From Magnetococcales bacterium (GTDB lineage: Bacteria; Pseudomonadota; Magnetococcia; Magnetococcales; JADFZT01), in contig JADFZT010000007.1 in the NCBI GenBank assembly GCA_015232395.1, forward strand, positions 1 to 64,000: a DNA stretch of 64,000 nt, read 5' to 3'. Positions 146 through 62,732 of this stretch are shown here, one piece after another; position 1 is the stretch's first letter, and each line of letters begins with the position of its first letter. Both the position numbers and the translations under genes were made by a program. A model generated the notes under the pieces. That model was not told the DNA's origin and made no database searches. It saw only the letters and a program-made list of their open reading frames with translations.

Positions 146-1693
146 TTAATTTCCAGCTGGAACGACGCTGTTTTCCCGTCTGGCCCGATCCTTTTTTTCC
201 CGCCACTGTTGCAGCACCCGCAAATTACGCTCCTCAATGCTGAGGGGATCCTCAGGCTTTTTATGGATGGCTGAGGGTTGCTGGGCGATGGGTTGGGTGA
301 TCGTAGCCGGTTGGGTTGTGCTTGGCTGGGGGATGGGTGCCGCAGGTGGGCTGACCAGAGGTTTTTGGCTGGTCGCGGGCTGGGTGCCGGGTTTCGTAGG
401 TGGGCTGACCAGGGGTTTTTGGCTGGTGGTGGATTTTGGAATGGGATTTTTTTGCTGGCCTGCCCGTTGAAATTGCAGTTTTTCTTCCGGGGTCAATCTG
501 CGCCCCACCTTGTAGGGCACCCCGTCAGGCTGGGCGATCATCTGTTCCACCATGGGCCAGTTGAGCATCACCGGGGTGCGGGGTCTGCGGGCCAGGGCTG
601 CGTTAATCGCCTCATGGGTCCAGCTCTGGAGGCTTTTTTGGGAGCGGCTGGCCAGCTCCTGGGTGATGGGGCGGTGGAGTTCCAGATAGAGTTCGCCATT
701 CAACCAACCCGCTTTGGCTGGACGATGCACAAACACCACCCGATCACCGACGTTGGCGCGCTTGAAAAGCCTGGGGATATCCTCGGGATAGAGACGGATG
801 CAGCCGTGGCTCACCCGGCGACCGATGCCGAAGGGCTGGTTGGTGCCGTGGATGAGATAGCTGGGCCAGTCGAGATAGAGGGCGTGGGTGCCCAGGGGAT
901 TATCGGGGCCGGGGCCCACCACCGGGGGAAGTCGCGGATCCTCCTTGCGTACCGATTGGGGCACATACCAGGAGGGGGCGGATTTTTTGCGCACGAGCTT
1001 GGTCCAGCCCACCGGGGTCTCAAATCCTTCCCGCCCCACCCCCACTGGATGGCTCCCCACCAAGCCCCGCTCCAGCCGCTGATAGAGGCGCATTTCCGGA
1101 AGATTGATCAATATTTTCCAGGGTTTGTCCGGCATGGGGATGATACGTTGCCGGGTAAAGCGCACCTGGGTACCTGCCGGGGGAAGCCAGGGGTTGATGC
1201 CGGGGTTGGCATCCATGATTTCGTTATAGCCGAGCCCCAATCCCCGGGCCAGCTCCAGGAGGGTTTCCCCCTGTTTGACTTGATAAAAATAAGGGCCATC
1301 CCCCATCACGTCATCCCCTCTGGTGGGGACGGGCCATTGCCAGGGGGCCTCGGGGGAGAGCTGCAAGTTGATGGCAAATGGCGTCGGTTCCGGCCCCAAA
1401 CGGGGAGTGGGAGTGGCAGGGGCTTCAACAGCTGGGGGGGGTGTCGCTTTTGGCCGTTCGGGAATGATGGGTATCTCGATCTCCGGCTCACCGGGGGGGG
1501 TGTCGGGAACGGCTTCCGGAATCTCGGTGGGGGCTGGTACCGAAATCGCGGGCAGGCTGACTTTTCTGCCAATTTTTTTGCGGTCGATCCCCCCCCAGGC
1601 AGGTAAAGCGGCCAGCAGGCACAGAAAAACCCCCAAACGCCCCAAGGTGGGGGGGGTGGGTTTTAGTAAACAAGAAAGGCGTTGGGTGGGCAT
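146..1693 (-). CDS. L,D-transpeptidase with LysM and YkuD domains
   Basis: This is a predicted exported peptidoglycan enzyme that would form 3-3 cross-links or attach proteins to peptidoglycan. The N-terminus has a hydrophobic signal segment (about residues 18-34), then a Pro-rich linker. A LysM domain (about 135-180, YQVKQGETLLELA) is followed by a YkuD catalytic domain (about 190-325). The family motif is present: HGT with His282, then SHGCIRL with His296 and catalytic Cys298. The C-terminal 120 residues are Pro/Gln/Thr-rich and contain a duplicated SQKPLVSPP motif, probably a wall-spanning or disordered tail. At 515 aa it is longer than the usual 300-aa enzyme because of the linker and tail. 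The start is ATG at 1693. Confidence 0.93.
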   Translation of the reverse strand: MPTQRLSCLLKPTPPTLGRLGVFLCLLAALPAWGGIDRKKIGRKVSLPAISVPAPTEIPEAVPDTPPGEPEIEIPIIPERPKATPPPAVEAPATPTPRLGPEPTPFAINLQLSPEAPWQWPVPTRGDDVMGDGPYFYQVKQGETLLELARGLGLGYNEIMDANPGINPWLPPAGTQVRFTRQRIIPMPDKPWKILINLPEMRLYQRLERGLVGSHPVGVGREGFETPVGWTKLVRKKSAPSWYVPQSVRKEDPRLPPVVGPGPDNPLGTHALYLDWPSYLIHGTNQPFGIGRRVSHGCIRLYPEDIPRLFKRANVGDRVVFVHRPAKAGWLNGELYLELHRPITQELASRSQKSLQSWTHEAINAALARRPRTPVMLNWPMVEQMIAQPDGVPYKVGRRLTPEEKLQFQRAGQQKNPIPKSTTSQKPLVSPPTKPGTQPATSQKPLVSPPAAPIPQPSTTQPATITQPIAQQPSAIHKKPEDPLSIEERNLRVLQQWREKKDRARRENSVVPAGN

Positions 1694-43716: not shown

Positions 43717-43994
<278 letters not shown>

Positions 43995-44862
43995 TTTTCT
44001 GTCTGCTTGATAGAGGCATGCCCCAAGAGATCCCTGATTTCAGACAAAGGCACACCACTGGAAACCAACCAAGCTGCACAGGTGTGCCGAAGATCATGCA
44101 CCCGAAAATCGTCAATCCCGGCCAGTTGACAAGCCTTTCGGAAGCTGTTTTTGACAGATCCCAGCCGGTTTCCATCCAGATGAGCAAAAACCCAAGGTGA
44201 GTGGGGGCAGTGGGCCGCCCTGAACCTTGCACGGCTCAACAGCGCCGCCCGTGCCGTTTCATTGATGGGAACCGACCGGCGCTTTCCGGCCTTGGTGTGC
44301 TCCCCTTCCATGTGGATCAAGCCCCCATGAAAATCCACCCTGGACCACTCCAGTCCCAAAAGCTCCCCCCGACGGCAACCCGTATGCAACGCCAACAGGA
44401 TGAAATCGGCCAAGTGTGTCGCTCGAACAACCTTCCCGGTTGCCTCAACCAGAGCCACTGCTTCTGCTGGACTGATCCAACGAAGTCGACCTTCTGGCAA
44501 AGGGGGGACTCTCCCCTTGACCGGATTAGGAATCATCCATCCCAATTCATCCTGTGCGAATGAAATCGCACGATTGAACAAAGCCAACTCCCGCCGAATG
44601 GTGTGCATTCCACACCCCTCTGACTCCCGAAACTTGCGGAACTGAAGAAGATCCGCACCCACGATCCTGTCCAGTCTTTGGCCTGTGAAAAACCGATACA
44701 GCGCCTTTGCTCCATACTGGTCCAACTGCCAACTCTTTTTAATCTCTCTAGTGGCCTCCAAATATTTCAACATCACTTCATCGAAAGTGCGGGGCGGTTG
44801 CGCGCCCCAGGTTGCCGCATGGAAATCATCAAGTTTCCATTTGGCGAAGGAATTGTCCATAT

Positions 44863-46092
44863 TTAACTTGAATAGTTAATGTCAATAAAATAGTTCCACT
44901 CGCCATGAAAGGCGTCTTTGGTGAGGTTAACCGCTTTCATTTCCTCATCGGAAACCTTAACCCCTTTGGGATAGCTATCTGTATCCAGTTCTGCCTTAAT
45001 TGTAAGTTCACCCTTGGTTGTGGTGTTCCCGAGCAGATTGACGATCACCTCATGACTTGTCAGAGGTTTTCCGCGCCAGTTCATGGTGATGTGGCAGAAC
45101 ATACGGTGCTCGATCTTGTTCCACTTGCTGGTCCCAGGGGGGAAATGGCAAACATGAATCCGCAGTCCGGTTTCGTTGGCCAAGTTCTGTAAGGCAACTT
45201 TCCAGAGCCGGACCCGGTAGCCGTTACTTCCTCCGCAATCGGCGGTGATTAGCATTTCCGTGGCGGTGGGGTACATCTTCGCCCCCATTTTGTACCACCA
45301 TCGCCGGATACTTTCGACCGCAAATTCAGCCGTATCGTGGTCGGTGCCAACACTGACCCAGCCCACGTTTGCCGTCTGGTCATAAACGCCGTATGGATTG
45401 ACCTTTCCCAATTCCTTGTCGGCAAAATCGTGAACACGGACCGGCTCTGGCTTTCCCTTGGGATTCCATTCCCGACCGCCGTTTTTGAAGTCGCCCACCA
45501 ACTCCTTTTTCTTGGTGTCGATGGAGATGACCGGCTGGCGCCGCCTTTGGAAATCCATGACCTGATTGTTGATGTGCTCAAACTGGGCATCCCGATCCGG
45601 ATGTCGTGATCCTTCCCGTTTTTTCTGGTTTGCCTGCAGGCTGTATCCAAGAACTTCCAATAAATCAGCCACCTTCTGCCGCCCAATGACATGACCCTGA
45701 TTTCCAAGGGCAGACGTAAGCTGGCGAACACTCTTGCAAGTCCAGCGTAAGGGAGATTCCGGGTCGCCACGGGACATAGGATCAACCAACCGCTCCAGAT
45801 CTGCCAGTAGCGTTGGATCGTTTTCGGTGACCCGTTTGCGTCCACCACCGGGAGAACGAACCCGCTTCGACAGTGCCTTGGCTCCCTTTCCAGATTTGGC
45901 CGCCGCCAATTCTCGAATGCCTTGGTGAACCGTAGTACGCGAAACGCCGGTGGCTCTGGAAATACACGAAATTCCCCCTCGGCCAAGAGCATTGGCCTCG
46001 GCGGCAGCCCATAACCGGCGGGTCCGTTCATCCAGCACGGTCTTCAGCGATTCATACTTCTCACGAATGACATGATCTGTGTCTCCGGTCAT
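44863..46092 (-). CDS. ISAzo13-family transposase
   Basis: The 409-residue protein has an N-terminal helix-turn-helix (SRATGVSRTTVHQGIRELA) and a DDE-type core (VISIDTKKKELVGDF, MLITADCGGSNG, STSKWNKIEHRMF) with the SPGGGRKRV and GTSKWNKIEHR signatures of ISAzo13. It overlaps the upstream Mor-like gene by ATGA. The 3' end is two bases from the integrase start. Terminal inverted repeats were not identified, so the element borders are open. Confidence 0.88.
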   Translation of the reverse strand: MTGDTDHVIREKYESLKTVLDERTRRLWAAAEANALGRGGISCISRATGVSRTTVHQGIRELAAAKSGKGAKALSKRVRSPGGGRKRVTENDPTLLADLERLVDPMSRGDPESPLRWTCKSVRQLTSALGNQGHVIGRQKVADLLEVLGYSLQANQKKREGSRHPDRDAQFEHINNQVMDFQRRRQPVISIDTKKKELVGDFKNGGREWNPKGKPEPVRVHDFADKELGKVNPYGVYDQTANVGWVSVGTDHDTAEFAVESIRRWWYKMGAKMYPTATEMLITADCGGSNGYRVRLWKVALQNLANETGLRIHVCHFPPGTSKWNKIEHRMFCHITMNWRGKPLTSHEVIVNLLGNTTTKGELTIKAELDTDSYPKGVKVSDEEMKAVNLTKDAFHGEWNYFIDINYSS

Positions 46093-46286
46093 GCATCCAG
46101 GTTATCGCCGGCCCATAGAATGTTCAAGTTATTTGTGGACAGCTCCTTAGGTAGCCGGACATCTGTTCCACCAAACGCCTCGACAAGCTTCAATGCGGCA
46201 TCAAGACCGATCTCCCTGCCTACCCCTTGAAAAGATGCTGGAAGATCCTCAAGGCGAACTGAGGATAGCGTTTTGGAAGACATCAT
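46089..46286 (-). CDS. Small Mor-like protein coupled to transposase
   Basis: The 65-residue protein contains GREIGLDAALKLVEAFGG followed by TDVRLPKEL, which resembles the N-terminal part of the Mor transcription activator family of Mu-like phages. The helix-turn-helix half of Mor is missing. Its stop overlaps the transposase start (ATGA), so it is translated together with it. It may be a truncated regulator or a coupling leader; function not established. Confidence 0.5.
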   Translation of the reverse strand: MMSSKTLSSVRLEDLPASFQGVGREIGLDAALKLVEAFGGTDVRLPKELSTNNLNILWAGDNLDA

Positions 46287-46318
46287 AAGGTGGGCTCTCC
46301 AACTCCCTTCGGTTTAGG

Positions 46319-46351
46319 CCGGGCTGGAGCTCGAAGGCGCTCGATGCCCGG
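46319..46351. repeat. Palindromic repeat, copy A (flanks higBA)
   Basis: A 33-nt element, CCGGGC...GCCCGG at the ends, with GGCGCTCGAT inside. It is nearly identical to copy B at 47041-47073, whose ends are TCGGGC...GCCCGA, so the closing base pair is changed on both sides. Similarity also covers the preceding CCCTTCGG..TTT. The two copies bracket the higBA pair. Confidence 0.7.
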
Positions 46352-46358
46352 TGCAGAG

Positions 46359-46646
46359 TCAAGCCGCCTTAAAGGTGGCAACCTGGATATTACCCACCTT
46401 CTGTTCTGCTTTCCACAGGTCATAAAGCATCTGCTGGGAGAGCCAGCTTTCGGGGCTGCCGCCGAAGGCTTTGGCCAACCGTATGGCCATTTCGGGGGAG
46501 ATACCGGAACGGCCATTGAGCACAGCCGACAGGGTTTTGCGGGTAATGCCAAGCCCTTCTGCCGCCTTGGTCACCGACAGCCCCAGGGGCTCCAAACAAA
46601 GCTCTCGAATCACTTCACCGGGGTGGGGTGGGTTGTGCATGCGCAT
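46359..46646 (-). CDS. higA: HigA-family antitoxin
   Basis: A 95-residue protein of the HigA family. [23 protein letters not shown] and the helix-turn-helix [25 protein letters not shown] are the clear markers. It binds and neutralises the toxin and represses the operon. It is second in the operon, 12 bases after higB, the toxin-first order that is typical of hig loci. Stop at 46359. Confidence 0.93.
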
Positions 46647-46658
46647 GGTGGTTGCCCC

Positions 46659-46937
46659 TCAATGGTAGTCCAGATAATCCACGTCTACGGCGTCTTTTCC
46701 CTCAAACCGGAAGGTCACCCGCCAGTTGCCTGAAACGGAAACGGCGTAATGCCCTTTCAGGCTTCCCCCAAGCGCATGGAGCCCCAAGCCGGGCAAATCC
46801 ATATCTTCAGGGCTACCGCTCGCCTCCAACCGGGCCAGGATGACACGAAGGCGCTTGAGGTGTTCCGGCTTGATCTTCCGTTTGGAACCGGTCTCGAAAA
46901 ACGCTCTCAATCCCTTATGCCGGAAGTGTCGAATCAT
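46659..46937 (-). CDS. higB: HigB-family mRNA interferase toxin
   Basis: The 92-residue RelE-superfamily ribosome-dependent endonuclease has N-terminal MIRHFRHKGLRAFF, central RLRVILARLEAS, and the C-terminal GHYAVSVSGNWRVTFRFEG...VDYLDYH, all typical of HigB (graT type). Catalytic-type His/Arg positions are present. The gene precedes higA and starts about 60 bases downstream of a terminator-like hairpin, so the promoter is in the 46938-46998 gap. Confidence 0.93.
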   Translation of the reverse strand: MIRHFRHKGLRAFFETGSKRKIKPEHLKRLRVILARLEASGSPEDMDLPGLGLHALGGSLKGHYAVSVSGNWRVTFRFEGKDAVDVDYLDYH

Positions 46938-46998
46938 GGGCTAAGTGTAACCAGGAACGTGTCAGGTAGCAATTACGTAAAGAGACCAAAAACAAAAA

Positions 46999-47034
46999 AC
47001 CCGAAGGGAAGGCCGCACGCCTCACCCTTCGGGT
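46999..47034. terminator. Bidirectional terminator upstream of higB
   Basis: A 10-bp stem (ACCCGAAGGG / CCCTTCGGGT) with a 16-nt loop. T4 follows on plus and T6 on minus. It probably insulates the higBA promoter from outside transcription. Confidence 0.7.
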
Positions 47035-47040
47035 TTTCGG

Positions 47041-47073
47041 TCGGGCTGGCGCTCAAAGGCGCTCGATGCCCGA
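47041..47073. repeat. Palindromic repeat, copy B (flanks higBA)
   Basis: Second copy of the 33-nt palindromic repeat described at 46319. It lies 104 bases upstream of higB on the far side of the terminator. Confidence 0.7.
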
Positions 47074-47224
47074 CCAGCCCCCCCATGGGGAGGGGAATGG
47101 ATGTGCCAGAATTGTGTCAGCCCAGGATCATCCTCACATTTTCCATAGCCAATATTGACAGAATGGGAACGAAACCATCATGGCAACTTGTTGTTTTTGA
47201 AGATTAACATGCCTGCTGTTGAAG

Positions 47225-47494
47225 ATGGGGTGCTAGGGGTCGGAGGTTCGAACCCTCTCGCCCCGACCATTTTTTCCTGAAAAATCAGGCAGCTGGGATT
47301 CATTCCCAACTGCCTTTTTTATTGCCCTCGCCCTTGCCCTTGCCCTCGCCCTCGCCCTTGGAAAAATGTGCCGCCCTTGGGAAAATGCACCGATTTTGTG
47401 CCATGCATTCCCACCCCCCACCCCATCTTTTCTTTCCAGGCCATCCAAGACACGAACAGCTCAGCGTACATTCTCTTGGGACAGATGGGCATAT
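47225..47494. repeat. Right island repeat (attR with int 3' stub)
   Basis: A copy of 43749-43994: tRNA-Pro 3' half with CCA, terminator, hexamer array (six GCCCT(C/T) units at 47324-47359) and the last 11 codons of an integrase, whose ending reads AHLSQENVR against AHLAQENVR in the intact gene. It must derive from a second, diverged element, the rest of which is gone. Confidence 0.9.
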
Positions 47495-47716: not shown

Positions 47717-48475
47717 TTATGTTTTGCCAAACAGCTCTTTGCGTTTTTCAATCCGCCGTCTTTGGAGGGCAGTGACGAGATTTTCGAAAAGTTGGGCTTG
47801 TTTGCTTGAACTGATCAAAAACTGAAGCCGGAAACTGATATTTCCAGCCACGGGTATCTGTTGAAGAATTTTGGCCTTTGCTGTCGCCTGAATCCCCCGC
47901 TCCTTCCAGTCAACCACCACTTCAATACGAGCATTGTTGGACATTTTTGGAACCGGACCCAGGGTGACCAGACGCATTCCACCTATGCTCAGATCCAGAG
48001 GGTTGGCTAGAAAAGAGATCCCGGAAGGGCGAATCACTTTTACCGTCAATCTCCAGGAAGGCTCCACATCCACCCGGAAAGCCGTTCTTTTTTGGCGGTT
48101 CAGGAACAGTTTTTCAGGTACTGAAAGACGAATGCAGCGGGTTGGGCTCATTTCCAAAAATTTGACCTGCGCCTCAGCCACATGCCGGGTGGTGAAAAAA
48201 TGGAGATTCACATATTCACTTCGACGAATGCGGATATTTCCCACTGGCGGATCCAGCGGTCCGATTTCCAAAAACCGTCCGGCCACAATATCCTCCATCC
48301 GCTCCAGTTCGTTTTCAAATCGGGAGTAAAATAAAATCGCATCATTGCTCATCTCCACCTGGACAGGATGACCTTCCGTTAAGGCGGCAGCAAGCAGTTT
48401 GGTGCATTCCGATGCATTCCCAACAATCAATTCATAGGGTTCTAAAGCAGGTTGATTGGCCATTTTTTCCACCAT
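47717..48475 (-). CDS. YcgR-like PilZ-domain c-di-GMP receptor
   Basis: The 252-residue protein has an N-terminal YcgR-like beta domain (about 15-120) and a C-terminal PilZ domain with the c-di-GMP motifs complete: RTAFR (Arg130, Arg134) and DLSIGG (Asp161, Ser163, Gly166). YcgR proteins bind c-di-GMP and brake the flagellar motor. It is the last gene of the signalling operon. The start could be ATG 48475 or ATG 48463; the latter has GGTGG upstream. Confidence 0.88.
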   Translation of the reverse strand: MVEKMANQPALEPYELIVGNASECTKLLAAALTEGHPVQVEMSNDAILFYSRFENELERMEDIVAGRFLEIGPLDPPVGNIRIRRSEYVNLHFFTTRHVAEAQVKFLEMSPTRCIRLSVPEKLFLNRQKRTAFRVDVEPSWRLTVKVIRPSGISFLANPLDLSIGGMRLVTLGPVPKMSNNARIEVVVDWKERGIQATAKAKILQQIPVAGNISFRLQFLISSSKQAQLFENLVTALQRRRIEKRKELFGKT

Positions 48476-48484
48476 TTGCGATGC

Positions 48485-49135
48485 CTACAGCCCGGAGACC
48501 CAAACTCGCGACAGCTCCAGAAAGCGGCAGATGTGGCTGATGTTGTGCTTGTCTTTGAAACCCACTTCATCGGAATAACGAAAATTCATCTGTGAAAATC
48601 GTGTATAATCAAATTTTTTAATGGAGGCGTTCCAACACTCCTGTGAGACGTTCACCCAGTTTTTGTCTCCGGAAAAGCTTTCAGCTGTTCGTTTTAAATG
48701 GTCCGGCAGACTTTGCAGGCGGGCACAGTCGTTCATGCCGCTGCCAATGTAGTTCACCTTACCAGTGGCATCCTGAAAGGGAATGACCACTCCATTGTGT
48801 ACCGAAAGCCGAATTCCGGAAAAAACCTGACTGGCCTGCCGACTTTTGAATAAAATGATGTTTCTGAGACCCAGAGCCAGAATAGGGGCATATCCCATCA
48901 GGCTTTCGTGGAGGATTAGATAACAACCATCTCCGGTCGGGACCATACCACGGACAATTTCCCGCTCATCCAGAACGGCCGGAATGCCGATAAAATGAAT
49001 CGCATCGATGATGCCGTGGTTGATGATGGAAACAGTCGTGAACTGATCCTCATCCCTCAAAGTGGAAAAATCGACCACATCCAACAACAGAATGTCGGTT
49101 ATGATTCGGCGCGGTTGTTTGAAGGTCAAGCTCAT
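48485..49135 (-). CDS. Class III nucleotide cyclase-like protein
   Basis: The 216-residue protein matches the cyclase homology domain: ILLLDVVDFSTL (first metal Asp19), TGDGCYLIL (second metal Asp69) and MNDCARL with the transition-state Asn135 and Arg139. The purine-selecting Lys before GD is not present (MVPTGD), so substrate (ATP or GTP) cannot be read from it and activity may be altered. No sensor domain is fused. The start ATG 49135 follows GAGGA. The longer frame overlaps the H-NOX gene and is rejected. It lies 31 bases after the H-NOX-PilZ gene. Confidence 0.78.
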   Translation of the reverse strand: MSLTFKQPRRIITDILLLDVVDFSTLRDEDQFTTVSIINHGIIDAIHFIGIPAVLDEREIVRGMVPTGDGCYLILHESLMGYAPILALGLRNIILFKSRQASQVFSGIRLSVHNGVVIPFQDATGKVNYIGSGMNDCARLQSLPDHLKRTAESFSGDKNWVNVSQECWNASIKKFDYTRFSQMNFRYSDEVGFKDKHNISHICRFLELSRVWVSGL

Positions 49136-49166: not shown

Positions 49167-50426
49167 CTACTGAATGCGTTCCCGCAGATCCCGAAGTACT
49201 TCCAATTGAATTTGCATGATGTATTGCTCCATGGTGGCCAGATCCTTGGTTGAAATGTCACTAAAGACCAACCGCATGATTTGCCGATCAGCTTTTGATG
49301 AAATTCCCAGAAGCTCTCCGGTAGGCTTGAGTTCCACTTGGCGCTGCTCAAGATCTCCCAGGAATGGATCCCAATTTTTTACGGCCAGAGAGAGTTCCAA
49401 CTCCAGGTTTTGGTAGAGTTCATCCTCTTTGAAAAAATGGGATGATGGACTCTCCACACTGATGCCACTCATGGAAATATCCAGCAAACGTGTTGTGAGC
49501 GTTTGCTCTGCAGAACGGATGATCACCGACACCTCTTCGCCAGGTTCAATTCGGACAGCAGCACGTTGTCCTACCTGTCCTTCAGCATAGACAATATGGC
49601 TGAGGGTCAAGCTCATGGTTTGCCAGTTGATGCCCTTGACCCGACCACGCAGGCCGATATCCACCCAAGGGCTGGACATGAAAGTGACCCCCTCGGCTTG
49701 AGCTGCGACCAGTTGGGTTCGGGGCGCTTTGATCAGAATGGCATTTTCAGAATATTTCAAAAGCAGAGCGGGATAGGAAATGGGCACTCCCTTGTAGAGG
49801 TTGAACAGCTTCAGGTCACCGCCATGATTCAATATTTCCTTGATTTCATGATTGGCGCCCACTTCCGACTCACCATGGACCCCCAGTAACCGTACATTGA
49901 TGCGACAAAGGCGTCCTTTTTTCAGCATGCAAATGTTTTCGTGGATATCCACCTGTTCGCCAAAATAGTCTGCAAGCCCCATAACAATCCCTTTGACCAC
50001 CCCACATAATTTTCTTGGGGATTGATAGGCGATGGCTACTTCGTTGCTCCGCAAACGCACGCAGCGGATATCCGGCGGTTGCAGCTGGGGGTTGTAGGAG
50101 TGCAAAGCAGAGTGGATGAGGTGCTTGGTGTTTTCGATGACATCGAGAGTTTTCCAACCGGGCTGGATAAGCCCCAAAAGCCCCCCAGTCTCCACAAGCG
50201 TTTTGGCCATGAACCGGCCAAACGCCACCATGGCCTGATAGGGGTCCAGATTCAGCTGGGCTGCCATACTTTGAAAGAGTGAGACGAAGACTTCATCGGG
50301 ATAGATCATCCCCACATGAAAAGCCCTGGGGCGCTGGTTGATATTGGCCACCACAGCAGCCCAGCTTTTGCCATCAGCCCTGGAGAGAAAAAACTCCTGC
50401 AATTTATGGAAAACGAATCCATGCAT
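49167..50426 (-). CDS. H-NOX heme sensor fused to PilZ domain
   Basis: The N-terminus (1-180) is an H-NOX (HNOB) domain: MHGFVFHKLQEFF start, DPYQAMVAFGRFMAKTL, heme-ligand His105 in LIHSALHSY, and the heme-propionate motif YxSxR (Tyr134, Ser136, Arg138) spaced from His105 exactly as in known H-NOX proteins. CMLKKGRLCRI closes the domain. Residues about 200-285 resemble the YcgR N-domain, and a PilZ domain follows with RAAVR (Arg288, Arg292) and DISMSG (Asp316, Ser318, Gly321), the c-di-GMP contacts. The C-terminus is a helix. H-NOX proteins bind NO (sometimes O2). A direct H-NOX-PilZ fusion would join gas sensing to c-di-GMP response. AAGGAGTGA precedes the start. Confidence 0.88.
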   Translation of the reverse strand: MHGFVFHKLQEFFLSRADGKSWAAVVANINQRPRAFHVGMIYPDEVFVSLFQSMAAQLNLDPYQAMVAFGRFMAKTLVETGGLLGLIQPGWKTLDVIENTKHLIHSALHSYNPQLQPPDIRCVRLRSNEVAIAYQSPRKLCGVVKGIVMGLADYFGEQVDIHENICMLKKGRLCRINVRLLGVHGESEVGANHEIKEILNHGGDLKLFNLYKGVPISYPALLLKYSENAILIKAPRTQLVAAQAEGVTFMSSPWVDIGLRGRVKGINWQTMSLTLSHIVYAEGQVGQRAAVRIEPGEEVSVIIRSAEQTLTTRLLDISMSGISVESPSSHFFKEDELYQNLELELSLAVKNWDPFLGDLEQRQVELKPTGELLGISSKADRQIMRLVFSDISTKDLATMEQYIMQIQLEVLRDLRERIQ

Positions 50427-50432
50427 CGGGAG

Positions 50433-51323
50433 TCACTCCTTTTTTGGAGGAGACGGCTGGTGGATGACCAGGACCAGGGAGTGGGATCCATCCAGGCCTG
50501 AAGCATCTCCTTGTTGGAGAATGGAGCCGGAGACCATCAGCGTGACCTCCTTTCCCGCCTGTGTCGAAAAGGTCTGAGGAATATTGCGCTGGGGACCCTG
50601 ATGGAGAATCCGGGTCATCAAATCGGTCAGGTCACTCTCTGGAAAAAGCTCACTGACATAAGATCCCAACAGCGCCTCTTCACTCCGGCCCAGAAACTTG
50701 ACCGTGGCTGGATTGACAGAGGTCACCAATCCCTCCCCGGTACAAACCAACAACCCTTCCGACAGGGAAGACACGAGATTTTCCAAATACCAACGGGCCA
50801 TGGCGTGCTCTTCAACCTGTCTTTCCAGATCGCTCTGGAGACGCCGCAGACGATCATCTTCCCGCCAGCTGTTGCAGGCGTTACGAGCCAGCTGAAGGAT
50901 TTCTTCACGGGTTAAGGGTTTGCGAGCCAGGAGTACATCATGGCGGATGCTTTCCTGAATTTCGTCAACGGATCTATCGCTATAGGCGGTTACGATAACG
51001 ATGTAGATCCGATCATCCATGGCCCGGATACGGCGTGCTGCTTCCAGACCATCGATACCGGGGGGCATGCGGATATCCACAAAGGCCACCTGGAATGGGT
51101 GATTGTCCGCAAGGGCTTCCCGAACCCGTTCCACCCCTTCCTCTCCTTGGGTGGCAGTGGTGACCTGGTAAATGGGTTTTGGCTCCCCAATGGATTCAGA
51201 GTTGGCCGCAAAGCCATCAAGCAGGGATGGCTCCTCTCTGGAAGGAGAAAAAATGTCCTGATAGACCTCCAATAGCTGCTGGTCGTCATCCAAAACCAAA
51301 ATTCGGTGGGTGGCATGGGACAT
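50433..51323 (-). CDS. Response regulator REC-PAS, first paralog
   Basis: The 296-residue protein has a receiver (acidic pair LDDD, phosphoacceptor Asp83 in FVDIRMPPG, Lys in ARKPLT) with about 25 unusual residues inserted after the first helix. A helix follows, then a PAS domain (about 165-265) with no output domain. Its homologue is the next gene upstream. It may pass on phosphoryl state or bind a ligand through PAS. GGAGG precedes the ATG. Confidence 0.87.
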   Translation of the reverse strand: MSHATHRILVLDDDQQLLEVYQDIFSPSREEPSLLDGFAANSESIGEPKPIYQVTTATQGEEGVERVREALADNHPFQVAFVDIRMPPGIDGLEAARRIRAMDDRIYIVIVTAYSDRSVDEIQESIRHDVLLARKPLTREEILQLARNACNSWREDDRLRRLQSDLERQVEEHAMARWYLENLVSSLSEGLLVCTGEGLVTSVNPATVKFLGRSEEALLGSYVSELFPESDLTDLMTRILHQGPQRNIPQTFSTQAGKEVTLMVSGSILQQGDASGLDGSHSLVLVIHQPSPPKKE

Positions 51324-51350: not shown

Positions 51351-52247
51351 TCACGGCGTTACGTTTTTCAGGACGGTCAAATCATTCAATACCAATAAAA
51401 CCGACTGTTCCCGCCCATCCGTGGAGCAGATGGTGGTGCCACTCATGAGAATCGGGAGTGTAGAACGGTCGGCGCGAACCAACGTTTTGTGGATATGCCG
51501 GGGTTTGGCGTTGGTCTCGACGATACGTCGCACCAACTGACTGACATCGGTTTGCCGGAACAGAATACCCACCCCCTTCATGGTCAGATCCCACGGTTTG
51601 TATCCACTCATTCGGATAGCTGCAGGATTCATATACCGGATTCGGCCAAATGGTGAGCAGACGATGATTCCTTCGTTGAGGCAGGAGATGATGTCGGTGA
51701 AGTACCAACGCATCGCATCCAGGTTTTCCACTTGATGTTCCAGCCGGTTTTGCTCCTGCAAATGGGCTTGCTGGGCTTCCCAGCTCAGGCAGCCATTTCT
51801 TGCCAGCTGGTAAATTTCATCCCCGGCCAATGGCTTGCGGGTAAAGATCACGTCATGGGAGAGGGTTTCCTGGATCTCCTCGATATGTTTATCGCTGTAG
51901 GCTGTGACGATGATGATGTGGATTCGTTCGTCCAACTCCCGAATGCGTCTGGCTGTCTCCAGGCCATTGATTCCTGGAGGCATGCGGATGTCGATAAAGG
52001 CCACCGCAAACGGGGCTTTCTGAGCAAGGGACTCCACTACCAGCAAAACAGCATCCAATCCCTGGTTAGCGGTTTTGACCTGAAACGGAGTTCGCTGCTC
52101 AGGAGGGGCCTCCTTTGAAGATGAAGAGTGGACAAAACTATCCAATTGGGACATCCCACTCGATGGCTGTGTGGGAGAAAGAATTTCCCGATAACTATCC
52201 ACTATGTTTTGATCGTCATCGACCACCAACACGTTTCGGTTTGTCAT
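51351..52247 (-). CDS. Response regulator REC-PAS, second paralog
   Basis: The 298-residue protein has the same layout as its neighbour: VVDDD start, the same inserted loop, phosphoacceptor in FIDIRMPPG, Lys in TRKPLAG, then linker and PAS (about 170-290). The two are probably a tandem duplication. The start at ATG 52247 has GGAG upstream and overlaps the histidine-kinase gene by 32 bases; the longer frame is not supported. Confidence 0.87.
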   Translation of the reverse strand: MTNRNVLVVDDDQNIVDSYREILSPTQPSSGMSQLDSFVHSSSSKEAPPEQRTPFQVKTANQGLDAVLLVVESLAQKAPFAVAFIDIRMPPGINGLETARRIRELDERIHIIIVTAYSDKHIEEIQETLSHDVIFTRKPLAGDEIYQLARNGCLSWEAQQAHLQEQNRLEHQVENLDAMRWYFTDIISCLNEGIIVCSPFGRIRYMNPAAIRMSGYKPWDLTMKGVGILFRQTDVSQLVRRIVETNAKPRHIHKTLVRADRSTLPILMSGTTICSTDGREQSVLLVLNDLTVLKNVTP

Positions 52248-53859
52248 GGCTATTCTCCAGACACGATTTTGGCAACCGAATGACCATTTCCGCTCCTGTG
52301 TTGAGCCCCCGGCTTTCAGCATGAATCGAACCGTTCAGGGATTGGATGAAAGTGGCCGCCGAATGCAATCCATAGCCGGTCCCACGGTTTTTGGTTGTGA
52401 AACCAAAGGAAAAAATATTTTCCAGCTGTTCGTGGGCAATGCCTTGGCCATTGTCTACCACCCGAATTTCCAAACCGTTGGAGTCGGACTGGGCGGTGAT
52501 TTGTATCAAACCTTCCACCGTCTCGGAGCGTCTACGCTCCAAGATGGATTCAGCACTGTTTTTGACCAGGTTGACTAGAAACTGCACCATTTGGCTGCGT
52601 GGCATATTGAGTTCATACAGGGATAAATCGGTGCTGATCTGCGTGCGAATTTGGTGTTTGTCCAAGTGGTCCAGTTGTAGCCGCAGGGCATTGTCCACCA
52701 GTTCCGCCAAGTTGAAACGGGAACTGTGAATGGCTGGTTGGGCCGTTTCCTGGTGTATTTTGATGATTTCTGAAATGTGGTTCACACCCTGCTGAATGGT
52801 CTGGGATTCCTTGCTGAAGAGGCCGGCCCCCAAATGTTTCAAGCGCTCACCGACCTCAACGAGCACCCCTTCCAAAGCATTCAATATATTGTGATCGCTC
52901 TCCCCCTGTTGCCTCTTATTGACCAATAACGTATTGAAATCCATAAAAATAGCCGCCATTTTTTCCAATTCCCGGCTGGCCGTCACCATTTTTTCCGCCC
53001 GATGGGAAATACTCATGATGGCATTGCCGATATTGTGGAGGATGGCCACGCTCATTTCAGCCACACCTGATTGGAATGAGGCAAAATGCTCCTGCTGCTC
53101 CAGACGGCGGCGTTCGGTAATGTCCCGGATGACACCGACGAAATAGCGTTTGCCTGCCCGGCTCCAGGTGGTGAGGGACATTTCCATGGGAAAAATTTGA
53201 CCATTTTTCCGCTGGCCTTCCAGTTCCAACACCTGGCCTGCCAGATTGCTGTGTCCGGATTGGCTGACACGCCTAAGCCCTTCGCTGTGGGACAGGCGGT
53301 ATTTTTCCGGCATGAGCATCGTCACCGGTTGGTTGAAAACCTCCGACTCCCCGTAACCGAAAACCTCTTCAGCCCCCAGGTTCCAAAACAGGATACAACC
53401 GGTTTCATCGGCGGTGATGATGGCCTCATTGACCGAGTTGACGATAAACCGCAACTCCTCACTGTTGGCCCGGATTTCTTTTTCGATGTTGTATTTGTGC
53501 AGGGCGATTTCGATGTTGGATTTTAATTCCCGGGAATCAAACGGCTTGAGCAGGTAACCGTAGGGTTCGGTCAACTTGGCACGGGCGAGGGTCTGCTTGT
53601 CGGTGTGGGCGGTGAGGTAGACGATGGGTATGTCCTGGTTGGCCCGAATTCGAGTGGCGGCTTCTATACCATCCATTTTTCCCTTGAGCCGGATATCCAT
53701 GAGAACCAGTTTGGGGTGGCTTTTCATGGCCAGAGTGACCGCCTCCTCACCGGTTTCCACCACTCCGGCGACGTGGTAACCAAGATCCAATAGCGACTCC
53801 TCAAGGGCCATGGCTGTGATCCCTTCATCTTCCACCACCAGGATTCCGTCACCGTTCAT
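52216..53859 (-). CDS. REC-PAS-histidine kinase
   Basis: A 547-residue soluble protein. The N-terminal receiver has Asp55 in LVLMDIRLKG; PAS follows (about 140-260, ending FVGVIRDITERRRLE). The kinase has phosphoacceptor His in ILHNIGNAI, N box LVKNSAES, VVDNGQGI and GTGYGLHSA. A kinase that starts with a receiver can be switched by another kinase, probably the one encoded just upstream. No membrane helix. Confidence 0.92.
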   Translation of the reverse strand: MNGDGILVVEDEGITAMALEESLLDLGYHVAGVVETGEEAVTLAMKSHPKLVLMDIRLKGKMDGIEAATRIRANQDIPIVYLTAHTDKQTLARAKLTEPYGYLLKPFDSRELKSNIEIALHKYNIEKEIRANSEELRFIVNSVNEAIITADETGCILFWNLGAEEVFGYGESEVFNQPVTMLMPEKYRLSHSEGLRRVSQSGHSNLAGQVLELEGQRKNGQIFPMEMSLTTWSRAGKRYFVGVIRDITERRRLEQQEHFASFQSGVAEMSVAILHNIGNAIMSISHRAEKMVTASRELEKMAAIFMDFNTLLVNKRQQGESDHNILNALEGVLVEVGERLKHLGAGLFSKESQTIQQGVNHISEIIKIHQETAQPAIHSSRFNLAELVDNALRLQLDHLDKHQIRTQISTDLSLYELNMPRSQMVQFLVNLVKNSAESILERRRSETVEGLIQITAQSDSNGLEIRVVDNGQGIAHEQLENIFSFGFTTKNRGTGYGLHSAATFIQSLNGSIHAESRGLNTGAEMVIRLPKSCLENSHDKPKRVGGR

Positions 53860-53861
53860 GG

Positions 53862-55889
53862 TTACCTCCCCAAATATCGCACCCTGACCCGTGTTCCAGG
53901 CTGATTATTTTTCCAATTCACCTCACCATTTAACTGCCGGACCAACGTTTTCACCAGCTGGATACCCAGAGAACCATCCCTGGGACTATCTAAGTCAAAG
54001 TCGAAACCCGAGCCATTGTCGATCACCGTCATGTCGATCCAGTTGTTGATTATCTGGCAGAGCAGGATTTTTATCGTCCCACCCTTTTTATTAAAAGCAT
54101 GTTTGAGGCTGTTGGAGATCAACTCATTGAGGATCAGGCCGCAGGGAATGGCCTGTTCTATCTTGAGAAATACGGGCGACAAAGTCAGCTTGAGGCGGAT
54201 ATTTTTTTCCTTGGCGCCATAGGAAAGAAAAAGGTTTGTTGCCAATTCCTGTATATAGTCGGCCAGATTAACCCGGCTCAAATTTTCGGAACGATAGAGG
54301 CGCTCATGGATTTGAGCCATGGAGCGTATGCGGTCACGGCTGGCTTCCAGAGCTGCCAAGGCGTTTTTTTTGGAGGCTTTCTTTTTTTTCAGGCGGCTGG
54401 CCTGAAGTTGCAGCAATCCGGAAATGATTTGAATGTTGTTTTTGACCCGGTGGTGCACTTCCTTGAGCAAGGCCTCTTTTTCTGCCAATGAGCGTTGGGT
54501 CTCTTCCTGAATTCTCATCCGGTCGGATATGTCGCTGAAATTGACTACAAAACCGATATTTTTTCCGTAGCGCAAAATGGGGTAGGAGTGAAACTCCACT
54601 GGGAAATGGGTGCCGTTTTTGCGAAAAAAAATCTCCCCATCACCATGGATACCGGTCGCTTTGGAAATGGGATCGAGGATGGGACAATCCTTGACTGGAT
54701 GATGTGGACCGTTACGGGTGGTGCAGTGAATGAGTTGATGGGCATTTTTTCCCAAAAGTTCGCCAGGAGAATCATAGCCCAACAGCTTCAGGCAGGCGCG
54801 GTTGACCAAGGTAAAGTTACCGTGGAGATCCGTTTCAAAAATACCCTCTCCCGTCGCTTCCAGCAGAAGCCGTATTTTTTCTTCCCGCTCCCGGATAATT
54901 GTTTCGGCTTTTTTGTGTTTGGTGATGTCCCGCCAACTGGAGCGGCTGTAGTGGATGTGGCCCTGCCTGTCCCGAACACTGGTAACGTTGAGAATGACCC
55001 AAAGTTTGGAGCCATCTTTGGTCCGAAAAACAAGTTCGGCGTTCTGGACACTGCCGGTCGTTTGAAACTGCTTGAAAATTTCCCGGGATTTATTGCGGCA
55101 GCTCGGATGATAGAGATCAAATATGGGGTGATGGATGATCTCTTCCTTGGAAAACCCCGTTTTGTCGATCAGGGTTTGGTTGCATCGGACAATGTGAGTG
55201 GTTTTGGAATCCACCGACGCAAGCATGTCCGGCGCATTGTCATAGAGATCCTGGTAGAGCCGTTCAGATTCGAGAATTTTTTCTTTGGAGCGTTTATTGC
55301 GGATGGCAATGGCGAAAAGTTCAGCGATCCGGCTGACATTTTTCAGACAATAATGATCGTAGGGATGGTCGGCATTGGCCAGTCCGATTTGGCCCACCAA
55401 CTCACCGCCGATGATAACCGGAACCGAAAGGTAGCGCTCGATGGGGATATGCCCTTCGGGGGTTCCCCCTGATGAGGGGTGGTTTTGGGGATCATTGGTA
55501 AAAAAACCCTGCCGTGTGTTCAGGGAGACGCCCCAAAGCTTCGGGAAGGTAAGGTCTGGATCTGGAGGAAAAACGATCTTGTCTTTGAGTGCAGTAATGG
55601 AGCACTCCCGGCCCATCATGTCGGTGAGGGTATGGGCGACCAGATCTTTGGTATCAGGATCGATCTCACCGACATATCCGTGTCTGCTTGCGGAAACTTT
55701 GAGGGAAACCTCCAGCACTTTGCCAGCCATGGCTTCGATGGTGAAGTCATCAGACATCAGGTGGCGGGATAGTGTAGCCAGGGCGTTACTGATTTTCAGC
55801 TCAAGGCTCAACCTGTTGCCAGCATCTCTGCGATCAGGCAGCTCAGCTGTCGTAAGAAAAGCAGCGGTATCGGGGGAGTCAAGCGACAT
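53862..55889 (-). CDS. GAF-PAS-PAS sensor histidine kinase (HisKA_2)
   Basis: A 675-residue cytoplasmic kinase. It has an N-terminal GAF-like domain (about 30-195), PAS (about 205-325), PAS (about 335-460), then a HisKA_2 domain with His in EVHHRVKNNIQIISGLLQLQ and an HATPase with NELISNSLKHAF and DNGSGF. It is the first gene of the seven-gene minus-strand unit and follows the next gene's start by two bases, so is coupled. No output receiver is fused. Confidence 0.93.
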   Translation of the reverse strand: MSLDSPDTAAFLTTAELPDRRDAGNRLSLELKISNALATLSRHLMSDDFTIEAMAGKVLEVSLKVSASRHGYVGEIDPDTKDLVAHTLTDMMGRECSITALKDKIVFPPDPDLTFPKLWGVSLNTRQGFFTNDPQNHPSSGGTPEGHIPIERYLSVPVIIGGELVGQIGLANADHPYDHYCLKNVSRIAELFAIAIRNKRSKEKILESERLYQDLYDNAPDMLASVDSKTTHIVRCNQTLIDKTGFSKEEIIHHPIFDLYHPSCRNKSREIFKQFQTTGSVQNAELVFRTKDGSKLWVILNVTSVRDRQGHIHYSRSSWRDITKHKKAETIIREREEKIRLLLEATGEGIFETDLHGNFTLVNRACLKLLGYDSPGELLGKNAHQLIHCTTRNGPHHPVKDCPILDPISKATGIHGDGEIFFRKNGTHFPVEFHSYPILRYGKNIGFVVNFSDISDRMRIQEETQRSLAEKEALLKEVHHRVKNNIQIISGLLQLQASRLKKKKASKKNALAALEASRDRIRSMAQIHERLYRSENLSRVNLADYIQELATNLFLSYGAKEKNIRLKLTLSPVFLKIEQAIPCGLILNELISNSLKHAFNKKGGTIKILLCQIINNWIDMTVIDNGSGFDFDLDSPRDGSLGIQLVKTLVRQLNGEVNWKNNQPGTRVRVRYLGR

Positions 55890-61902: not shown

Positions 61903-62145
61903 GTGGCCACCCCCCGCAAAAAATATGCCGCCGTCCCCCTGGAGCAGCCCCCGCCATTGATCGCGGAAGCTCCACAGAGGCGGCGGCTGGAAGGGGCGGC
62001 GGCGGTGATTGATCTGATCATCTATTCCGATCCCACCTCATTGGCCCCCGAGACCGAATTTCACGCCCTGCGCCTGGCCCGGGATCTGGTGGTGGAGCAT
62101 ATGGAGCAGGCCGGGCAGCAGGCTCAAGGGGTGCCGAAATCATGA
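61903..62145 (+). CDS. Small Mu-like phage early protein
   Basis: 80 residues, starting at GTG directly after the preceding TAA. The middle (AAAVIDLIIYSDPTSLAPETEF) is helical. No family recognised. The stop overlaps the next ATG. Confidence 0.65.
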   Translation: MATPRKKYAAVPLEQPPPLIAEAPQRRRLEGAAAVIDLIIYSDPTSLAPETEFHALRLARDLVVEHMEQAGQQAQGVPKS

Positions 62146-62732
62146 CCACCCTCCAAGAGCTGGTCAAAGAGTTCCAGCGCCACCATGGTTCATCAGTGGC
62201 GGGGGTGATCGAGGCTGGCAAAGTGCTGATCCGCGTCAAGAAAAACACCAAATTTGGGCACTATCTCCCCCTGGTGGAGGCCTTGGGCATCTCCAACACC
62301 ACTGCCCAGCGCTACATCAAAGTTGCAAAAGATCCAAGGTTGTCAAATGCGGCCATTTGGCCGCATTTGCCGCAAGGCCTTAGAATTCTTTATGAGATTT
62401 CCAAGCTTAAAGACCCTCAATTTCAACAGGGTCTAGCCACAAACCAAATCACGCCCCACATGGAACACAAAGACGTGGAGCGGCTGAGGCGGGGTGAACA
62501 AAAACCCTCACCCCCCCCGGAAGGCCCCACCAAAACCATCCAGACGCCCCTTTCCCGTGGCGAGCGGTGGCTTTTGGCGGCCTTTCTGGAGAACGCCCTC
62601 TCCGAGATGGAGCCAGACGATCTAGCCTTCATGGTGGTGAAATACACTGAAAAGCACACCATCCACGATCTGGATCCAGCCGGGCTGAAACCAAAACAGC
62701 TCCTGAAAAAGCTCCGGAAGGGGCTCCGATGA
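62142..62732 (+). CDS. DUF3102-like phage protein
   Basis: A 196-residue protein. The N-terminal region (VIEAGKVLIRVKKNTKFGHYLPLVEALGISNTTAQRYIKV pattern) matches DUF3102-type proteins, which resemble ParB-like helix-turn-helix folds. The C-terminus is basic. It overlaps both neighbours (ATGA before, ATGA after), so the early genes are translated as one unit. Confidence 0.75.
   Translation: MTTLQELVKEFQRHHGSSVAGVIEAGKVLIRVKKNTKFGHYLPLVEALGISNTTAQRYIKVAKDPRLSNAAIWPHLPQGLRILYEISKLKDPQFQQGLATNQITPHMEHKDVERLRRGEQKPSPPPEGPTKTIQTPLSRGERWLLAAFLENALSEMEPDDLAFMVVKYTEKHTIHDLDPAGLKPKQLLKKLRKGLR

Follow-up and report, generated by a model that had tools for sequence, protein, structure and literature searches.

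An H-NOX domain joined to a YcgR/MotI-type c-di-GMP receptor in Magnetococcales, with repeated loss of the heme ligand

The 64,000-nucleotide stretch of Magnetococcales DNA analysed here (the window) encodes, on its minus strand, a single polypeptide in which an H-NOX domain is followed by a YcgR/MotI-type c-di-GMP receptor, both halves carrying intact signature motifs. The gene forms part of an operon and the architecture, which most simply goes back to a single fusion event, is conserved across the order; within the family the proximal histidine expected to bind heme has been lost repeatedly, with the H-NOX domain kept under purifying selection.

The fusion gene and its predicted structure

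The open reading frame runs from 50426 to 49167 (minus strand), with an ATG start and a GGAG ribosome-binding site, and both of its Pfam matches exceed the curated cut-offs: HNOB over residues 2-162 (E=2.1e-25, 90 bits against a cut-off of 25.5, 162 of the 163 profile positions) and PilZ over residues 288-405 (E=4.3e-6, 27.4 bits against 22.5). The domain search thus finds in one reading frame the two domains that an earlier note on this DNA had read from the letters, and the residues named there (His105 with Tyr134/Ser136/Arg138 at the given spacing in the H-NOX domain, intact RxxxR and DxSxxG motifs in the PilZ domain) are all present and align with functional residues of solved proteins or of family members. 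The best solved matches in a phmmer search are Shewanella H-NOX structures, which cover residues 1-179 (4u9b, E=7e-13). The gene comprises:

49167..50426, minus: H-NOX-YcgR(PilZ) fusion gene, 419 residues (HNOB 2e-25; PilZ 4e-6; AlphaFold2 pLDDT 85.6; 46 homologous fusion genes, Magnetococcales)
49884..50426, minus: H-NOX domain, residues 1-181 (Pfam HNOB; Foldseek and phmmer, 4u9b)
50112..50114, minus: His105, predicted proximal heme ligand (aligned to Shewanella H-NOX His103)
50013..50027, minus: YxSxR heme-propionate motif, YQSPR 134-138 (Y134-Q-S136-P-R138; sequence, alignments)
50004..50006, minus: Cys141, predicted zinc ligand (C-E-C-C site; alignment to Shewanella zinc ligands)
49938..49940, minus: Glu163, predicted zinc ligand
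49929..49931, minus: Cys166, predicted zinc ligand
49905..49907, minus: Cys174, predicted zinc ligand
49572..49856, minus: YcgR-N-like beta domain, residues 191-285 (AlphaFold2 secondary structure, Foldseek)
49254..49571, minus: PilZ domain, residues 286-391 (Pfam PilZ; match in 26 of 26 aligned members)
49551..49565, minus: c-di-GMP motif RxxxR, RAAVR 288-292 (both arginines, R288 and R292, invariant in 47 of 47 fusions)
49464..49481, minus: c-di-GMP motif DxSxxG, DISMSG 316-321 (D316 to G321; [D/N]xSxxG in nearly all members)
49173..49250, minus: C-terminal helix, residues 393-418 (AlphaFold2)

The position nine residues beyond the YxSxR tyrosine, which we take to be that of Tyr140 in the O2-binding Thermoanaerobacter H-NOX, is occupied by Val143 in the window copy (mapped by motif spacing) and by Leu, Met, Ile or Phe in its relatives, tyrosine not being common there. 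The dependence of O2 binding on this distal tyrosine is an established rule for H-NOX proteins, also given in PMC12329717 and PMC8738867. Since the window copy has a valine instead, O2 sensing is unlikely and NO is the expected ligand, so that of the two inputs offered in the earlier note (NO or O2) only the first is retained for this protein. As far as its sequence goes, the window copy has every feature of an NO-type H-NOX. Additionally, it carries Cys141, Cys166 and Cys174, with Glu163 as the fourth position of a predicted zinc site; these C-E-C-C positions align with the zinc ligands C139/H161/C164/C172 of the Shewanella H-NOX (PMC7108781), the glutamate standing where stand-alone H-NOX proteins have His or Gln.

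An AlphaFold2 model of the fusion, built from 26 aligned sequences, reached a mean pLDDT of 85.6 and a pTM of 0.58, the latter too low to rely on how the two halves are placed with respect to each other. The N-terminal half had H-NOX as its Foldseek match (4u9b; TM, normalised by target length, 0.88), and the matches of the C-terminal half were MotI/DgrA, YcgR with c-di-GMP, PP4397 and VCA0042 (5vx6, 5y6f, 3kyf and 2rde). In the model, residues ~191-391 are therefore a YcgR/MotI-type pair of beta domains and not a bare PilZ domain, the YcgR-N-like part having no match in the Pfam search; structure prediction upholds the fusion and its H-NOX half as first described, and the PilZ label of the other half turns out to be incomplete. 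A two-domain receptor of this kind suggests a motility output, and the genome holds FliG as well as 50 GGDEF and 32 cNMP-binding hits, so that motor, c-di-GMP and cNMP machinery are all present. It is the modelled fold, nonetheless, that suggests the flagellar motor as the target, and the same fold is also common to PilZ proteins without flagellar action, which counts against the motor reading.

Conservation across the order and loss of the heme ligand

The fusion is present in 42 of the 48 Magnetococcales genomes, as 47 genes (one is cut by a contig end, leaving 46 alignable), and an architecture shared by 47 homologous genes is far beyond chance. A 43rd genome has a 73-residue fragment of it, and the five genomes without any match are 57-78% complete. 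All fusion homologues in named genomes belong to Magnetococcales bacteria, and neither 351 other Pseudomonadota genomes nor samples of 385 and 369 genomes from two classes (which partly overlap the phylum sample, giving about a thousand genomes in all, all of them Pseudomonadota) contained a fusion, only separate H-NOX or PilZ proteins; the survey of the architecture that had been proposed thus places it, among the Pseudomonadota genomes covered, in a single order. In the H-NOX domain tree, from which two very long branches were set aside, the 46 fusions lie on one side of a branch with 100/100 support and 13 stand-alone H-NOX proteins on the other, so that the fusion most simply arose once and became near-universal in the order. 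Three other YcgR/PilZ proteins of Magnetococcales (L061, L062 and L063) share their C-terminal half with the fusion and have a different, apparently helical N-terminus, from which it seems that the sensor half may have been swapped. The PilZ gene near mamAB that PMC5088516 mentions was left aside, no tie between it and this family having been found.

The combined NO and c-di-GMP reading, as put forward for the window copy, does not extend to the family. His105 is kept in 12 of the 46 alignable fusions and replaced in the other 34, by Leu (23), Phe (4), Gln (3), Val (2), Pro or Trp, so that heme/NO sensing would be the property of a minority that includes the window copy. By contrast, the proximal histidine is present in all 14 stand-alone H-NOX proteins of our comparison, and was absolutely conserved in a survey of 598 H-NOX sequences (PMC7108781). 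At least five independent changes are needed to account for the loss on the H-NOX domain tree, a single His-less clade being rejected (AU p=2e-5). An alignment error can be ruled out, since the flanking columns E98, P118, R121, R124 and Y134 align without doubt. We also considered His72 and His99 as replacement ligands, but neither is confined to the His-less members, each being found together with His105 as well (His72 in 6 of the 12 His-bearing fusions, and in 4 of the 14 stand-alone proteins), leaving no clear substitute. In two genomes (G031 and G037) the fusions L016 and L017 have a histidine at position 105 and are nested among Leu-bearing sisters, a pattern compatible with regain or with several parallel losses.

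Loss of the ligand has not been followed by decay of the domain, a possibility rejected by pairwise dN/dS values of ~0.05-0.15 for the His-less H-NOX domains, similar to or below those of the PilZ half. In the 34 His-less fusions Tyr134 is kept in 34, Ser136 in 33 and Arg138 in 31, and the C-E-C-C set is found in 42 of the 46 fusions. The retention of both the YxSxR residues and the C-E-C-C set, under strong purifying selection, indicates that the His-less H-NOX domain is maintained for a role outside canonical sensing by heme. It also bears on the idea that the H-NOX domain of the window copy is a non-sensing structural relic: the repeated loss of the ligand across the family would fit such a fate, but with selection this strong even in the His-less members, and with all motifs intact in the window copy itself, we regard it as very improbable.

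Judged from these sequences, most members of the family are probably not heme-NO sensors, and in the His-less members the H-NOX domain most likely senses thiol or redox state without heme, or serves as a partner subunit. Two studied proteins provide leads by analogy: the heme-free H-NOX of Vibrio cholerae responds to oxidation of the cysteines that match the C-E-C-C site of the fusion (PMC7108781), and the Caulobacter H-NOX responds to oxidation of those same cysteines irrespective of heme (PMC12329717). A third lead is given by V4R sensor domains, in which zinc is held by three cysteines and one glutamate (PMC10715001).

This last likeness could be taken further, the His-less pocket binding another small hydrophobic ligand in the manner of V4R domains, so that for these members the name H-NOX would be historical. 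V4R domains such as those of MopR and PoxR have a related fold, the zinc ligands of the V4R phenol sensors (PMC10715001) spell the same C/E/C/C letters, and the V4R profile is matched, at best with E=3e-8, by 19 of 26 members of the fusion family. Against this, HNOB is matched by all 26 aligned fusion relatives, at best with 9e-27 against 3e-8 for V4R, and scores far better in the window copy; the YxSxR residues are kept in 31-34 of the 34 His-less fusions, and a His-poor profile (A2) matches the Shewanella H-NOX at 1e-24. We therefore consider a V4R-like role distinctly improbable.

A closer competitor extends the thiol chemistry to the whole family, the window copy included: the H-NOX half would be mainly a heme-independent zinc-thiol redox sensor, with heme, if bound, secondary and cysteine oxidation switching the YcgR module. 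Magnetococcales live at oxic-anoxic boundaries, a habitat in keeping with a redox sensor. The C-E-C-C set is present in 33 of the 34 His-less and 9 of the 12 His-bearing fusions, the low dN/dS of the His-less domains points the same way, and the Caulobacter protein does bind heme, yet answers only to cysteine oxidation (PMC12329717). What weighs against it is the clade of the window copy (G000), which groups with the copies of two other genomes (G015, 53% identity, and G023, 48%; support 94/98): all three keep His105 and YxSxR exactly, and the G023 copy has L-E-P-S at the zinc positions, having lost the cysteines and kept the heme site, which favours heme in this clade. We hold this family-wide zinc-thiol alternative to be somewhat unlikely. 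The genomes G000 and G015 each have, in addition, a second fusion, which is His-less.

The operon and its cyclase-like gene

The fusion is the fifth gene of a seven-gene run on the minus strand (GAF-PAS-PAS kinase, response regulator-PAS-kinase, two response regulator-PAS proteins, H-NOX-YcgR, cyclase-like protein and PilZ protein), separated in gene order by 2 nt, an overlap, 27, 6, 31 and 9 nt:

53862..55889, minus: GAF-PAS-PAS-HisKA_2 histidine kinase, likely the first gene of the operon (Pfam; 2-nt gap to the next gene)
52216..53859, minus: response regulator-PAS-histidine kinase (Pfam)
51351..52247, minus: response regulator-PAS protein, paralogue of the next gene (Pfam)
50433..51323, minus: response regulator-PAS protein, its stop 6 nt upstream of the fusion start (Pfam)
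48485..49135, minus: class III nucleotidyl cyclase-like protein, 216 residues, 31 nt downstream of the fusion (Foldseek, conserved motifs)
47717..48475, minus: second PilZ protein, 252 residues, with RTAFR and DLSIGG (Pfam PilZ, 6e-5)

The earlier note had overlooked the last two genes. The response regulator-PAS gene directly upstream of the fusion is conserved beside the orthologous fusions of G015 and G023, and lies within ~8 kb of that of G007; the second PilZ gene has an orthologue next to the fusion of G023, where it is encoded on the opposite strand. The neighbours of the common His-less copy also recur, the commonest of them at 23 of 43 loci.

The cyclase-like protein matched no Pfam family at E<=0.1, and hence not Guanylate_cyc, so it is named from its fold and motifs. 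Its model, the one good model of five and built from an alignment of only four sequences, matched the class III cyclases Cya2 (2w01, 8e-8), Rv1900c and soluble guanylate cyclase in Foldseek, with E about 1e-7. The metal aspartates D19 and D69, together with N135 and R139, are invariant in the four orthologues. Class III cyclases canonically have Lys/Asp at the purine-specificity positions for ATP and Glu/Cys for GTP; here these positions are non-canonical (Val65 and Asn128, by motif spacing), which makes both the product and the activity of the predicted cyclase uncertain.

Four of the 48 Magnetococcales genomes have an orthologue of the cyclase, in every case in the gene neighbourhood of an H-NOX-PilZ copy: in G000, G015 and G023 it is the gene directly after the fusion, and in G007 it lies ~2 kb further on, past one gene of the opposite strand. 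Neither His105 nor YxSxR survives in the G007 fusion, and retention of the cyclase therefore does not depend on heme. An origin of the cyclase in Pycsar or other defence systems was rejected, there being no PADLOC match and no effector gene. Distant relatives of the operon cyclase form the N-terminal, class III cyclase-like domain of ~1,000-residue proteins in three genomes (L102, L103, L104 and L106, in G012, G024 and G031), followed in L102, by eye, by an apparent NACHT-type ATPase.

The gene pair also allows the fusion to be read chiefly as a partner-docking adaptor, its H-NOX half regulating the cyclase in trans and its YcgR half targeting or tuning it by c-di-GMP, as a split, c-di-GMP-gated system resembling guanylate cyclase. 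The cyclase is adjacent to the fusion throughout the clade of the window copy and, beyond that clade, the order holds a close orthologue in a single genome, Foldseek brings up soluble guanylate cyclase and Cya2, and stand-alone H-NOX proteins do act in trans on partner enzymes (PMC8846402). Nevertheless, 38 of the 42 genomes have the fusion without the cyclase, and the substrate residues of the predicted enzyme are non-canonical; we judge the adaptor role to be unlikely.

Elsewhere in the window, a small mobile island (43717-47494) ends ~220 nt from the last operon gene. It is bounded by direct repeats of 93% identity (43749-43994 and 47225-47494), the first of which starts inside the tRNA-Pro gene, and contains:

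43717-43793: tRNA-Pro
43961-44860: tyrosine integrase
44863-46092: ISAzo13-type DDE transposase
46359-46937: HigB/HigA-like toxin-antitoxin pair

The right end of the window is phage-like in appearance; an open reading frame there (62142-62732) has no Pfam match, and its start resembles, by eye, phage-type DUF3102 proteins.

Proposed mechanism and relation to known systems

For the window copy, we rate as the leading explanation, with about an even chance, a mechanism in which NO at the heme changes both the c-di-GMP response of the YcgR half and its docking on a target, with the cyclase as a partner or second output. The polypeptide would be a sensor-effector, with an H-NOX domain placed ahead of a YcgR/MotI-type c-di-GMP receptor. 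From His105 and YxSxR, and from the missing distal tyrosine, we infer a ferrous heme that would take up NO but no O2. The bound NO would strain or sever the bond between iron and His105 and thereby shift the H-NOX subdomains, and this shift would alter how the YcgR-N/PilZ module answers to c-di-GMP and docks on its target, which from the YcgR/MotI fold would most likely be the flagellar motor. The cyclase encoded 31 nt downstream would be a likely partner or second output, under control of the H-NOX half in trans, its product being made or withheld as in a split soluble guanylate cyclase. In most other Magnetococcales, where the fusion lacks the heme ligand and keeps the predicted C-E-C-C zinc site, sensing of thiol/redox state or of another ligand independently of heme, or service as a partner subunit, is more likely.

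The window copy shares with stand-alone NO-sensing H-NOX proteins of facultative anaerobes (Shewanella SO2144, Vibrio cholerae, Legionella Hnox1) the fold, the proximal histidine, YxSxR, the lack of a distal tyrosine and the three cysteines of what is here a predicted zinc site. Those proteins, however, signal to a separate kinase or diguanylate cyclase, whereas the Magnetococcales domain is covalently fused to a c-di-GMP receptor. With the flagellar brakes YcgR and MotI (DgrA) the fusion shares the YcgR-N beta domain followed by PilZ, with RxxxR and [D/N]xSxxG, and we know of no member of that group with an H-NOX domain. The H-NOX-MCP fusions of obligate anaerobes similarly join H-NOX directly to a signalling output, but bind O2 through the distal tyrosine and have a chemotaxis output in place of PilZ. 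Soluble guanylate cyclase likewise combines H-NOX with a class III cyclase, which in the window are neighbouring genes for separate polypeptides, without HNOBA or a coiled coil and with a c-di-GMP receptor domain in addition; the two fusions of G000 and of G015, one with and one without the heme ligand, presumably recall its alpha and beta subunits. A full-text literature search, mostly outside subscription journals, returned no description of an H-NOX/HNOB-PilZ/YcgR fusion, in agreement with the earlier note, which knew of no description of this effector type, and a review suggests an association of HNOB with c-di-GMP signalling only through GGDEF proteins, besides two-component auxiliary proteins (PMC8846402). 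Domain databases may list the HNOB-PilZ architecture without comment.

At the scale of the order, a possible but still doubtful reading is that H-NOX, once a heme-based NO sensor acting in trans, was built into a c-di-GMP flagellar brake as its input domain, and that the heme ligand was then repeatedly dropped and the zinc-thiol site kept. The resulting heme-free redox brake could belong to the core of (magneto-)aerotaxis, with the heme-bearing, cyclase-coupled version kept in few lineages.

Known bacterial H-NOX proteins change c-di-GMP levels via separate enzymes; the fusion would act on the receptor itself and, if this is true, would connect NO or redox state directly with a c-di-GMP effector. 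The pairing of an H-NOX gene with a class III cyclase gene is rare in bacteria and resembles a split guanylate cyclase. Since the family ranges, within one protein, from members with the heme site intact to members that lack the ligand, it forms a natural series in which the contributions of heme and of the zinc cysteines to H-NOX signalling can be tested apart, and the fusion is a candidate component of the way magnetotactic cocci adjust their swimming at the oxic-anoxic boundary.
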